Assembly: GCF_019721995.1 (NCBI RefSeq)
Contig: NZ_BLYC01000002.1
Span: 62,001-126,000 of the forward strand
Origin: Bathymodiolus japonicus methanotrophic gill symbiont
GTDB lineage: Bacteria > Pseudomonadota > Gammaproteobacteria > Methylococcales > Methylomonadaceae
Direction: 5' to 3'
Length of the DNA: 64,000 nt
Below the pieces are notes generated by a model. It made no database searches and was not told the DNA's origin. It worked only from the letters and a program-made list of their open reading frames with translations. The position numbers and the translations under genes were made by a program. Position 1 is the first letter of the stretch; every line of letters starts with the position of its first letter. This document shows, in pieces, positions 1 to 58,892 of the stretch.

Positions 1-809
1 CCTGACCTCTTATCGTGGCGGTTTCTTTTTTTGCCTGAATTGTTTTTAAGGGGAGATAAAATCGGAAATCTAAAAATAAGCACGCCCAGCGACCTTTGAC
101 CTGTTTCAGCAACCCTACCGATACAATATTTTGTGCCCATGGATATTTGCTTTGATCCGATTTGGCAGCGTGGTCAAAAATGGCTTCACAGCCCAGGCGC
201 GCCATGCTACCTCACGAAATTCCGGGACTCCTGTCGCCATAATTCGTTCACCTACGTAGCGGATGGGAGATGCCCTGAACGCGCTGCGTCCGCAACGACT
301 ACGCACAAAAGCCGCTTCGTCATTACTACCTCACTGGCTGGACGGCTATTCGGAATGCAATTCTTGCTCCTCTCGCGTGCTGCTAGCACACGTCGAATCA
401 GCGAATTGCCCTGTCGCCTATCAGGGACTAAAAATCACCACTTCGCTAAGCTACGTTTCCATGATTTTCAGCGGAAGATATTTTTGCCTACTTTAGTGAT
501 AATGGAGTCATCCAGTGCAACCAATATGCGCCCATCTGTTTCAGGAGACGGAATCAGCTCCCAGATAGTTTTCCACAGCCCAGCCCACGGAAAAGTTGAA
601 GAAGCCATGAAAGTGTAAAAGCGCTTATTCTTGATCTCAAACCCAAACAACGTATCAAGGCAACGCCAAAGATTAGAGGTCATTGATGACGTAAAAGGAA
701 CGATAATGGACAGGATCGTGTAAACGAACAGAGAGGCTCGTTCGCGGCCTAAAGTGGTTTCGGAAAAATGATCTTGAAGCGGGAGTAAAATATCGCGTAA
801 AATGAACAT
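1..809 (-). pseudogene. DDE transposase remnant (ISe), N-terminal part, split by a CGCTG element
   Basis: The reverse-strand frame starts at ATG 809 and runs to 474, is interrupted by the element at 194-473, and continues in the same frame from 193 to the window edge. Removing the element joins ...GKNIF directly to GCEAIFDHAAKSDQSKYPWA with no extra or missing base. A motif LVALDDS near residue 95 looks like the first catalytic Asp of a DDE transposase. It resembles the DDE_5/IS701-like group, but the C-terminal half lies outside the window, so the family is tentative. It is not functional as it stands, because the element adds stop codons. Confidence 0.65.
194..473 (-). mobile_element. CGCTG element, type L1R1 (280 bp)
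   Basis: Full-length copy read on the reverse strand from CGCTGAAAATCA to GGCGCGCCTG. It sits in the ISe transposase frame. Excision of exactly these 280 bp restores the frame (AAATATCTTC joined to GGCTGTGAAG), so no target duplication was made. It has no credible coding capacity. Confidence 0.85.
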
Positions 810-811
810 GA

Positions 812-879
812 ATGAGGTCGTTTTATTTGTATAATCAATGTGTTATAAACTTTCATTATACAGTAAAACTAGGCCTCAT
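812..879. repeat. Imperfect inverted repeat upstream of ISe transposase
   Basis: Arms 812-835 and 855-879 (ATGAGGTCGTTTTATTTG and the complement of TAAAACTAGGCCTCAT) match at roughly 19 of 24 positions around a 19-nt loop. It lies just upstream of the ISe start codon, so it may be the end of that element or a partly palindromic terminus. The rest of 880-1017 holds no gene that I can see. Confidence 0.45.
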
Positions 880-1003
880 TTACGATTAACCTGTTGTTTT
901 TAAAAGGAATTCAAGGCTTTTAGTCAACGGAATGCCATTAATATTAGTAATATCTAATATTTCAGAAAAATAAGCATTAGCTGATATTCTTATGCTTTAA
1001 AAA

Positions 1004-1017
1004 CTAGGAAACTTCAG
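1004..1017. repeat. Partial MITE-D-like end
   Basis: CTAGGAAACTTCAG resembles the MITE-D terminus (TTGGGAAACTTCAG) and abuts the truncated left side of ISa copy 1. No partner end is visible upstream, so this is a remnant or a coincidental match. Confidence 0.35.
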
Positions 1018-2182
1018 TTACTGAAGGTGTGTTGGCCTTTGATGAATCAGACCGAGCACGATCTAAGTCTACAAAACGTATTTATAAGGTTTACAAGCAG
1101 AAACACAAAGGCTCCGGCGGGTATGTTAATGGACAAACGATAGTATTATTGCTGCTAGTTACCTCATCCATTACAGTGCCTGTCGGTTTTTTCTTTTATA
1201 TGCCGGATCCAGCCTTAAAGCAGTGGGATAAAGAAGATAAACGGTTGAAAAAGAGCGGTATAGCAAAAAAAGATCGGCCTATTAAGCCTGAACGTGACAG
1301 TGCCTACCCGACCAAAACAGAGATTGCATTAGGCTTATTAAAAGAGTTTAAAGTTGCGCATAGCCTGATTAAAATTAAAGGCGTACTGGCTGATGCGCTT
1401 TATGGTGAAAAAGCCTTTATGGACGAAGCCGCTAAAGAATCTGGAGGCTCGCAGGTGATTAGCCAATTAAGTAAAAACCAAAATATTGAATATAGAGGTA
1501 GAATAAGGTCAGTCGAGAGCTACTTTAATTCGATTAACAAAGGCATTGATCAGATAATACGTGTACGTGGCGGCAAAGAGATTAAAGTGACTGTCAGCAG
1601 TGCACGATTAAAGGTGAGTTCACACAGTAAAAAACGCTTTGTCATTGCCTTAAAATATGACGGTGAAAACGACTATCGCTATTTAGTGGCGACAGACCTG
1701 ACTTGGCGCACACAAGATATTATTCAAGCCTATACGTTGAGATGGCTGATTGAGGTTTTCTTTGAGGACTGGAAGCTTTATGAAGGATGGGGGCGTGAGG
1801 CCAAACAATTAGATGAAGAGGGATCAAGCCGTGGCCTGATTCTGAGTCTTTTGTTTGACCATTGCCTTCTCCTTCACCCAGAGCAAATAGCCCGCATTGA
1901 AAGCAAACTACCTGCGTATACCGTAGGAAGCTTACAGCGCAAGTCTCAAATGGATGTACTGCTTGAGTTCATCACGTCATTGCTAGAGTTTCCAGATCCT
2001 GGTGATAAGCTGAAAGAGTTAGGTGAATTAATAAAGGATGTGTTTCAACTGATGCCATCAGGAAAACATATGATTGGCAGAGATTTAGGGCGCTTAGGGC
2101 CAACAGCATCATTAAAGTATTGTTCTGCTGGGTGAAGGTAAGAGTTTGATGGCAATGGGATGGAAAAACTTGAACATCGAGT
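1018..2182 (+). mobile_element. ISa copy 1, left end truncated
   Basis: The right end is intact: AAAAACTTGAACATCGAGT ends at 2182, matching the terminal inverted repeat of the other ISa copies (5.3, 24 and 46 kb). The left side, about 290 bp including the start of the transposase gene, is missing and replaced by sequence ending in a MITE-D-like terminus at 1017. This copy lacks any CGCTG element and is the best local reference for the ISa 3' half. Confidence 0.85.
1029..2135 (+). pseudogene. ISa transposase, IS4-type DDE, lacks first 100 residues
   Basis: The frame can start at GTG 1029 but corresponds to residue 101 of the longer copy at 6.1 kb. It keeps the presumed catalytic positions: LAFDESD, GVLADALYGE, and the IS4 Y-(2)-R-(3)-E-(6)-K signature YTLRWLIEVFFEDWK. 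The C-terminus ...IGRDLGRLGPTASLKYCSAG is the uninterrupted version of a stretch that is frameshifted or invaded in ISa copies 3 and 4. Missing its N-terminal domain, it is unlikely to be active. The family assignment rests on the signature and overall layout. Confidence 0.8.
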
Positions 2183-2297
2183 ATAACTCAAAAATCACTG
2201 GTTGAATTAATGATATAAAATATTTTGTCTGCAATCCCGCTTTATTATTGTGTAGAATGGAATTCCATTTTAGCTTTTTAATGTCTGGGTAGGAACT

Positions 2298-2636
2298 ATG
2301 AAATTAATCACTGCAATTATTAAACCGTTTAAACAGGAAGATGTACGCGAAGCACTATCAGAAATTGGTATTGCGGGTGTTACCGTTACTGAAGTCAAAG
2401 GCTTTGGGCGACAAAAAGGGCACACCGAATTATATCGAGGCGCTGAATATGTGGTGGATTTTTTACCGAAAGTAAAAATGGAAATTGTAGTGGCTGATGA
2501 TATTGCAGACCAGGCAATAGAGACGATTATTAATGCGGCTAATACGGGGAAAATTGGTGATGGCAAGATATTTGTGTCTAATATTGAGCAGGTTATCCGT
2601 ATACGTACGGGGGAAGTGGGCGAAGAGGCGATTTAA
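2298..2636 (+). CDS. glnK: Nitrogen regulatory protein P-II
   Basis: A 112-residue P-II protein, the normal family length. It senses 2-oxoglutarate and ATP/ADP and, as a trimer, plugs the AmtB ammonium channel. The T-loop is clear ([18 protein letters not shown], with the uridylylated Tyr51 in LYRGAEY), as is the B-loop region [15 protein letters not shown]. The start ATG is preceded by TAGGAAC. The next gene, amtB, follows after 9 bp, which is why I call it glnK rather than glnB. I see no convincing -24/-12 sigma-54 site in the 115 bp between the ISa end at 2182 and the start. Regulation by nitrogen is expected for the family but not shown here. Confidence 0.95.
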
Positions 2637-2645
2637 AGAGAGTTT

Positions 2646-57756: not shown

Positions 57757-58029
57757 TAATGCCCATGTTGCATTTAAGAAACACATTTATCCTGGAAAAC
57801 GCAGTTGAGCACAGATTTATTCACTAAACCGTGAAGCGTAGGACACTCACTCAACAGGGGGCAAGTTTTTACAATCATTATTTTTAATATTCAGCTGTTT
57901 ACAGTGTTATATAGCGATCAACTTCGGTTTCTAGGTATAGATGGATGATATTCATTGAGAGCTTTCTTATCATCCATCAAAATGATCAAAAGAGCTTGTG
58001 AACCAGAGCTGTTAAGGTAACGCGAGTTG

Positions 58030-58135
58030 CCTAAGTTAAGGACAGACTGTAGGATGTGCTGACGATAGGAAGCGTATATTTTCGATTGTACGCTTCGTTC
58101 CTCAGCACACTTTGCAACAGTTTGCCAAACTTAGG
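58030..58135. repeat. Large palindromic intergenic repeat (about 106 bp)
   Basis: Outer arms CCTAAGTTAAGGACAGACTGT and ACAGTTTGCCAAACTTAGG, inner arms TGTGCTGACGATAGGAAGCGT and ACGCTTCGTTCCTCAGCACA, with an AT-rich centre. There is no coding content. Probably a small non-autonomous palindromic element. Confidence 0.6.
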
Positions 58136-58172
58136 AGAATTCAATAACACCCGAGTCTGATTTGTCTTTTGA

Positions 58173-58241
58173 CTTCACAGACGCACTAGAAAAATTTTTC
58201 ATAGCCTGCTATGTGCCAATTTCACTAATACGCCTGTGAAG
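58173..58241. repeat. Palindromic repeat (69 bp)
   Basis: CTTCACAGACGCACTAG pairs imperfectly (13 of 17) with CTAATACGCCTGTGAAG, with an inner hairpin ATAGCCTGCTAT. MITE-D inserted 16 bp to its right. The rest of 57757-58257 has no gene that I can support. Confidence 0.55.
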
Positions 58242-58257
58242 CTAAAAATCTGTGCAA

Positions 58258-58461
58258 CTGAAGTTTCCCAATAATTATTTATGGTAAAATTGAAACTATG
58301 CTACAACTATATGAAAAAAACAGTCTTTTCATTCGTTTCAAATGCTATTGCCTAAGGGGAATTAAGTAGGGGTTTGCTATAAACATGGCAAAACCACCTA
58401 AAATAAACCTCGATACACCAGCATTGTGTATTTCAGCTACTCAATAATTGGGAAACTTCAG
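58258..58461 (+). mobile_element. MITE-D, complete and unoccupied (204 bp)
   Basis: Same length as the copy at 35.3 kb, flanked by CTGTGCAA at 58250-58257 and 58462-58469. It is the cleanest 8-bp duplication for this family. Confidence 0.95.
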
Positions 58462-58597
58462 CTGTGCAATACTTGCGGGTTTTATTAAATCTTTGAGCTC
58501 TTTAATGGCCTTGGGGTCTGAACGCCGACGTTGAACGGCTATAAAAGTGATATTGGAAACGGTTATTTTTGATGCTACTGACATTATGAAAATAAGA
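58462..58597 (-). pseudogene. Short coding remnant of uncertain origin
   Basis: On the reverse strand a frame from ATG about 58587 reads MSVASKITVSNITFIAVQRR then RSDPKAIKELKDLIKPASIAQ and runs into MITE-D. The stretch DPKAIKELKDLIKPA resembles part of a periplasmic solute-binding protein (sulfate/molybdate type), but this is weak. A CGCTG element bounds its other side at 58598. Confidence 0.25.
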
Positions 58598-58892
58598 TTG
58601 GGGAGTCGCTATTTTTGCGAAAGCTTGTTTTGGGCATCCCAGCCCAAGCAAGCAGCAAAAACTTAACGCGACCACTTATGCCTCCGGCGGCCCCGATTCG
58701 TCCTCGTCACCTCGTCCCGACCCAACAAGGGGTCGGAACATAGGCTCCAAATGACTTGACGCCGTGTCGGATGGCCTTTTATTTTGTCTCCACCTTCGCT
58801 AACGCTCAGACTCCGACAAAATAACGGCCCTACGGCTATCGCGGACTAAAAATCATCACTTCGCTTAGGCTCCGTTTCCCTGATTTTCAGCG
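58598..58892 (-). mobile_element. CGCTG element, type L1R2 (295 bp)
   Basis: Complete copy with AA as the R2-terminal dinucleotide (TT at 58598-58599 on this strand). The original target is not known. It ends 143 bp before acnB, so it may lie in or near that gene's upstream region. Confidence 0.85.

Follow-up and report, generated by a model that had tools for sequence, protein, structure and literature searches.

Structured CGCTG elements of a methanotrophic gill symbiont: insertion without target duplication and a single fixed base at the junctions

Insertion sequences of the IS200/IS605 type insert without duplicating their target, have two different structured ends, use the lagging-strand template, and have a tetranucleotide at each junction, left flank and right end, behind which the strand is cut (available text of PMC6006769). 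A family of short elements in the methanotrophic gill symbiont of Bathymodiolus japonicus appears to share these features. The elements begin CGCTG, and 21 of them lie in the 64,000-nucleotide stretch analysed here, the window (NZ_BLYC01000002.1, positions 62,001 to 126,000; G000:C2:62001-126000 in our numbering). They differ from IS200/IS605 in fixing one base, a C, rather than a tetra- or pentanucleotide. Their left hairpin starts about 2 nucleotides (nt) from the cut, their body is conserved, and no TnpA was found with their ends at the loci considered below.

Group II introns and IStrons also insert exactly, are structured and restore the reading frame on removal, but the CGCTG element lacks an intron core in Rfam scans and is often antisense to the frame. 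HEARO/IscB RNAs of the OMEGA type are likewise structured, about 300 nt long and inserted without duplication, whereas this genome has no IscB or TnpB match and the element no Rfam match. With REP, BIME and REPIN sequences and their RAYT proteins the family shares a high copy number, a hairpin, the lack of an internal transposase and an enzyme presumed to act in trans. One form of the element (R1) has a GTAG near its right end in this genome, which the other form (R2) lacks. Those sequences measure 21-65 nt in the available text of PMC6006769, and the elements here about 260-310 nt.

Copy number, ends and insertion sites

BLAST and pattern scans confirmed all 21 copies listed in a preliminary description of the window, and 17 run end to end. 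Three of the others are truncated, and the host of a nested pair lacks its middle (Table 1). The genome is 4.97 Mb long in 109 contigs, and a first look across it returned 1,296 and 1,316 candidates, of which 40 and 9 were scored. The larger sample used here is 862 kb of this genome, made up of the window and parts of contigs C1, C3, C4 and C5. It holds 279 element pieces, 217 of them end to end (130 R1 and 87 R2), from which we extrapolate a genome total of about 1,250 complete copies. The copies fall into five types. R1 elements (CGCTG...GCGCGCCTG) are 280 or 260 nt long. R2 elements (CGCTG...GCGACTCCCC) are 288, 293 or 299 nt long and carry two further bases, which brings them to 290, 295 and 301 nt. 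The right end of R1 reads CGCCTG in 128 of 130 copies, while the extra bases of R2 are GA in 49 of 87 and otherwise GC, AA, GT, CG, AC or AT. As first described, neither end is an inverted repeat of the other and no transposase lies inside; a length of at most 310 nt is not known to suffice for one.

Insertion is precise at sites with a known empty counterpart. In a first set, joining the flanks reproduced an empty site for 51 of 97 copies, including 12 of the 17 complete copies in the window; in the 862 kb this held for 96 of 217. Nearly all of these matches (92) fit one pattern, with 44 R1 copies exact and 48 R2 copies leaving their two extra bases only. The four irregular cases lie in a run of C, beside a nested copy, at an R2 copy with one extra base, and at a copy whose best match carries the GA of the candidate scar in Table 1. 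When sites were sought by exact 16-mers from the two flanks, 73 of the 206 distinct ones proved to have an empty or near-empty counterpart (1,765 empty copies). Three near-empty forms turned up: 29 copies with T, at the R2 site that has one extra base; 4 copies with an insertion of 8 bases, next to a nested element; and a single copy with GA. Controls at four shifted places gave one-base insertions of A or T only. No target duplication of 2-10 bp appeared among the 96 joined-flank matches or the 73 found by 16-mers. Exact junctions without duplication are as in IS200/IS605. A miniature inverted-repeat transposable element (MITE) of the DDE type would have terminal inverted repeats and a duplicated target, neither of which is seen, and the exclusion of ordinary DDE transposons therefore stands.

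The preliminary description had counted at least 12 sites with a known target. Twelve window copies do match empty sites, though two that it had included because removal restores a frame (10079 and 10371) had no such match. Assembly joins are an unlikely cause of the result, because single contigs, up to 487 kb long, span many copies. Removing the element joins a frame of at least 150 codons in 73 of 214 copies; with one or two bases left out, the count falls to 22 and 35. Frames of this length also cover the points 350 bp away on the two sides of the copies, in 109 and 94 of 214 cases.

One site may record an excision. In one copy of the insertion sequence that the preliminary description called ISa, an additional GA occupies the very position at which another ISa copy contains an R2 element with GA as its last two bases (45595); 32 other ISa copies have no insertion at that position. 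This single case suggests excision that left the last two bases of R2. Precise excision, if it occurs, would leave no trace.

The preliminary description had proposed looking for longer copies with an open reading frame. No longer version with a transposase, and none that is autonomous, was found in the parts examined; the long forms that were found, in a relative, carry an intron. Partial copies in the 862 kb, where inspected, are truncations, nested copies and deletions. A 100-bp R1 form with an identical internal deletion stands at three sites of this genome (C1 167260-167359, C3 231466-231565 and C4 76363-76462). We rejected it as proof of a dispensable body, since an in-place deletion between two GGCGACAGG repeats accounts for the three copies. 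Lone palindromic hairpins CGCTG...AGCG of 29-49 nt, without a body, also occur (L032 752-780, L040 14125-14173, L041 5317-5365 and others). No empty site was found for these hairpins, and we do not claim that they are mobile.

A fixed C at the junctions and a preferred strand

The base at position -4 of the left flank is C in 215 of 217 copies (129 of 130 R1 and 86 of 87 R2). Counting distinct left flanks gives 200 of 202, against a background of 0.209 for C in flanks. Other flank positions show weak preferences only, for example a shortage of C at -5 and of G at -1. In relatives, one set has C at -4 in all 26 rows, which represent 24 distinct loci including one from this genome. A further set has it in each of the 32 rows with a left end; some of its rows share a contig, and 25 more have no left end in reach. 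The right ends carry a C in the same register. In this genome they read CCTG, CCGA and variants; in relatives, where they were placed by alignment or by a shared stretch, they read CCAG, CCTA, CTAG, CCGC, CCGG, CCGT, CTTG and CTTA. One copy (L044 9369-9648) is best read as ending GCGCGCC, two bases short, and keeps the C at -4. A single rule, CNNN^, fits left and right junctions, as a nuclease cutting after CNNN at both would leave. No tetra- or pentanucleotide is fixed 5' of the left end, in contrast to IS200/IS605; only the C at -4 is.

Orientation follows replication. The G-rich strand is taken as the leading strand, and GC skew was used as the guide to it. By contig skew, 160 of 200 copies on C1, C3, C4 and C5 point along the leading strand (p = 3.4e-18), a count that excludes the window, where the skew is weakly positive and 11 of the 17 copies are plus and 6 minus. 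Local skew gives 147 of 191 after 26 copies with skew under 0.02 were dropped (p = 3.6e-14), and distinct flanks give 151 of 187. In copies that point along the leading strand, the plus strand is the lagging-strand template, which is the orientation of IS200/IS605. The preliminary description mentioned neither the near-invariant C nor this orientation.

These junctions bear on whether a tyrosine or serine recombinase could act on a circular form with coupling-like ends. The variable bases of R2 and the one GA scar resemble coupling sequences. The ends of R1 do not vary in this manner, however, and such an enzyme would not be expected to produce a strong replication bias or a CNNN rule that is one-sided. 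We regard a recombinase as quite improbable.

Relatives, predicted fold and possible RNA routes

A survey of 81 genomes from the symbiont itself, its genus, its family and its order (matches at E up to 0.001) gave R1 matches in 23 and R2 matches in 41, some of them weak. Among the matches listed, the R2 3' module occurs in Methylobacter tundripaludum, Methylovulum psychrotolerans and Methylomonas methanica, in metagenome-assembled genomes of Methylomagnum, Methyloglobulus, Methylicorpusculum and Methyloprofundus, and in Bathymodiolus methanotrophic symbionts. It also occurs on single contigs labelled Rhodospirillales and thiotrophic symbiont, which may be contamination. We rejected one genome (G071) as proof of transfer between families. 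Contamination is suggested there because its listed matches are all confined to contigs C78-C91 and because the named thiotroph contig carries the element. A contig filed as viral (IMG/VR UViG_2781126804; L262, L263 and L266) carries the element as well and is probably bacterial. Published symbiont genomes are rich in insertion sequences, at more than 20% of the sequence (PMC8788690, available text). The CGCTG family is real and large, consists of non-autonomous elements, and occurs in many genomes of the order.

The fold was assessed on alignments of 12 R1 and 14 R2 sequences, with 500 shuffles and slid controls. Predicted helices cover the whole element, with 96.5% (R1) and 94.7% (R2) of cells paired. 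Pairs that change on both sides number 21 of 78 in R1 and 28 of 65 in R2, which exceeds all 500 shuffles (means 10.6 and 15.8, maxima 16 and 24); slid controls reached at most 4 and 10. This gives strong, though not independent, support to a predicted covarying fold of the plus strand: the shuffles ignore relatedness, and the alignments used for the test had also served to predict the structure. Counts of pair types were not clearly above the shuffles, 74 and 36 of 500 reaching the observed value. Among varying pairs, G.T exceeds A.C (29 v 8 and 25 v 9). Twelve of 31 sequences were folded singly, and the plus strand had the lower minimum free energy in 12 and the lower z-score in 11. Their plus-strand z-scores range from -5.5 to -0.3, and that of the R1_280 consensus (-0.27) is not significant.

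A fold of this length raises the question of an RNA route, in which a structured RNA (a small ribozyme or a template for reverse transcriptase, RT) would enter DNA through reverse splicing, or by copying primed at the target, using an RT that acts in trans. Exact insertion, the lagging-strand bias and the whole-length fold would all suit a route like that of group II introns. Rfam includes HEARO, and the preliminary description had proposed scanning it for HEARO and introns; scans of the element and its relatives gave no family match to the element, only one chance-level CPEB3 match (E 0.91) and two matches outside the elements. Five RVT_1 matches occur in this genome, of which four match defence RTs and the fifth is a 119-aa fragment; none is an intact group II intron RT, and none of the five proteins has a GIIM domain. 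For the four defence RT genes (L061, L063, L064 and L065), the best PADLOC matches are UG17, the pair Drt3a with Drt3b, and the retron type VI RT.

Reading frames point the same way. Copies in the 862 kb that interrupt a frame are antisense in 49 cases and sense in 24, a distribution under which splicing does not protect the gene, and survival by splicing is accordingly disfavoured. The points 350 bp away show the same lean, less strongly on the left (63 v 46 and 61 v 33), so the antisense excess partly reflects the neighbourhood. A group I or II intron would be recognised by a catalytic core and by sense orientation in genes; the element has no intron match in Rfam and lies more often antisense.

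An intron does sit inside the element in one complete genome of the survey (G027), in which 40 of 55 first-look candidates were scored. It has 36 element matches, three of which start at nt 17 (L296, L297 and L298; C1 near 723890, 2258609 and 2528917). In these copies a 1,888-nt group II intron is inserted after nt 16, giving a unit of 2,197 nt that keeps the element ends and, in 3 of 3, the C at -4. Rfam intron matches were found in the two loci scanned, and the single protein scanned has RVT_1 and GIIM domains. Among the three copies, 3 readable sites vary within the 1,888 nt of intron, against 5 within the 309 nt of element. Because the element parts differ more, the intron probably entered separate element copies. 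Judged from this divergence, the element seems to be a repeated homing site of the intron, its home and not its product. All long forms found in G027 carry the group II intron; for its other partial copies, no partner end appeared in the fetched sequence (roughly 3-5 kb), and two of these copies lead into stretches of N. One truncated left part (nt 1-121; L283, G027:C1:973900-979000) is followed, after a few hundred bases, by a frame that resembles a CRISPR Cas3 HD protein by eye. Weighing the intron-bearing copies against the rest, we find an RNA route unlikely for this family.

An IscB- or TnpB-type element with its OMEGA RNA, or a satellite of one, would also explain a structured body of about 300 nt and insertion without duplication, as in HEARO. 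No RRXRR domain (IscB type) was found in this genome or in 69 of the 81 genomes (its own included), among them the element-rich G006, G015, G016 and G027. The TnpB zinc ribbon had no match in this genome, while the control matched in 6 of 14. With no RNA-family match and no IscB nearby or in trans, this explanation is already largely refuted for this genome, and we give it hardly any weight.

Table 1. CGCTG elements and a candidate excision scar in the window
Feature	Position	Strand	Comparison
Complete R1, 280 nt	194..473	-	exact empty site
Complete R1, 280 nt	4337..4616	+	
Complete R1, 260 nt, within ISa copy of the preliminary description	4938..5197	-	exact empty site
5'-truncated R1 (nt 12-280)	7257..7525	-	
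3'-truncated R1, 260-nt element (nt 1-242)	7526..7767	+	
5'-truncated R1 (nt 38-280)	8005..8247	-	
Complete R2, 293+2 nt	8284..8578	+	
Complete R1, 260 nt	10079..10338	-	
Complete R2, 288+2 nt	10371..10660	-	
Complete R2, 299+2 nt	14196..14496	+	empty site, +2 nt
Complete R1, 260 nt	14660..14919	+	exact empty site
Complete R2, 293+2 nt (GA)	19076..19370	+	empty site, +2 nt
Complete R1, 280 nt	20196..20475	+	exact empty site
Complete R2, 293+2 nt (AA)	20674..20968	+	empty site, +2 nt
Complete R2, 293+2 nt (GA)	23847..24141	+	empty site, +2 nt
Candidate excision scar, extra GA in ISa copy	24200..24201	+	comparison with other ISa copies
Complete R1, 260 nt, within MITE-D of the preliminary description	29237..29496	+	exact empty site
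R1 with internal deletion, split by nested R2	36603..37046	+	
Complete R2, 293+2 nt, nested in R1 element	36620..36914	-	empty site, +2 nt
Complete R2, 293+2 nt, within ISa	45595..45889	+	
Complete R1, 260 nt	47255..47514	+	exact empty site
Complete R2, 293+2 nt (AA)	58598..58892	-	

A proposed single-strand route and its candidate enzymes

We consider it just probable that these are non-autonomous single-strand elements, mobilised in trans by a nuclease of the Y1/HUH type that recognises a single base. On the lagging-strand template, the plus strand would become accessible in single-stranded form and would then fold. A Y1 nuclease of the HUH type, encoded elsewhere, would cut both the left flank and the right end after CNNN (step 1). 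The ends would be joined, and the joint in the resulting circle would read CNNN^CGCTG, which would again be a cut site (step 2). The strand would then be inserted after another CNNN (step 3). This scheme resembles that of IS200/IS605, whose cut geometry and use of the lagging strand are given in the available text of PMC6006769, except that one base of the tetranucleotide is read. The preliminary description had offered three routes. The single-strand route fits best, because of the CNNN^ rule at both junctions and insertion on the lagging-strand template; the RNA-guided route is unsupported, and reverse transcription is weak here.

The first candidates for the enzyme are the Y1 proteins of this genome. 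Among the gene types that the preliminary description proposed to search for (HUH, IscB, TnpB and RT), Y1 gave 22 matches, none of them tied to the element. Most are partial; they include a 113-aa IS200-like frame and an intact 222-aa RAYT-like frame (L058).

Several observations weigh against a Y1 enzyme. No Y1 gene stands between the two end modules of the element in the 10 of 22 own Y1 matches with loci, and element pieces lie near only 2 of 56 Y1 loci of relatives. The IS200 copies of relatives (16 loci) have other ends, as far as shared stretches show, and did not emerge as parents of the element. In this set of loci, which is not exhaustive, no TnpA was thus found between or with these ends. 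Y1 genes occur in 70 of 81 genomes, and an element match in 40 of those 70 and in 2 of the 11 without Y1; many genomes therefore have Y1 without the element and two the reverse, although kinship confounds the comparison. No right-left joint of the element was found in the 862 kb. The fold was predicted on the plus strand, which favours that strand in the strand comparison. Finally, a conserved body is unexpected, as a Y1 element should need only its ends.

A domesticated RAYT (TnpA_REP) could instead move the elements as giant REP-like sequences. RAYT-like Y1 genes are widespread in the order, the intact frame here is one of them, and RAYT subclasses without REP or with atypical structures exist (PMC6006769, available text). 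The right end of R1 in this genome has GTAG 16 nt before the end, followed by the palindrome GGCGCGCC; REP sequences carry such a GTAG at their foot. The same GTAG is absent, though, from R2, from the G027 copies and from R1 relatives L075 and L077. The two RAYTs tested by others, from E. coli and Stenotrophomonas, cut at CT (PMC8266576, available text), whereas the ends here read CNNN. Moreover, no element-like hairpin flanks the four RAYT genes examined, and genomes with RAYT and no element match exist (G025, for example). Movement by a RAYT is accordingly improbable in our estimation.

The conserved body allows a further reading. Both cuts may be the work of one enzyme, of a kind not yet described, or of the folded strand alone, which would read the single C three bases upstream. 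The body would then be a substrate or cofactor rather than the remains of a decayed transposon, and the family would be a new class kept across the methanotroph order. We think this possible but doubtful.

We regard the one-base cut rule as new, and the titles and opening lines of abstracts in a literature search held nothing resembling the CGCTG family. Near-identical copies in one genome, perhaps a thousand of them, with a one-base rule common to target and element end, make an unusually clean natural data set on strand-specific transposition. The enzyme, once identified, would give a nearly unrestricted system for single-strand insertion. The conserved body poses a question of its own, which is why a covarying fold is kept by a parasite that should need only its ends.

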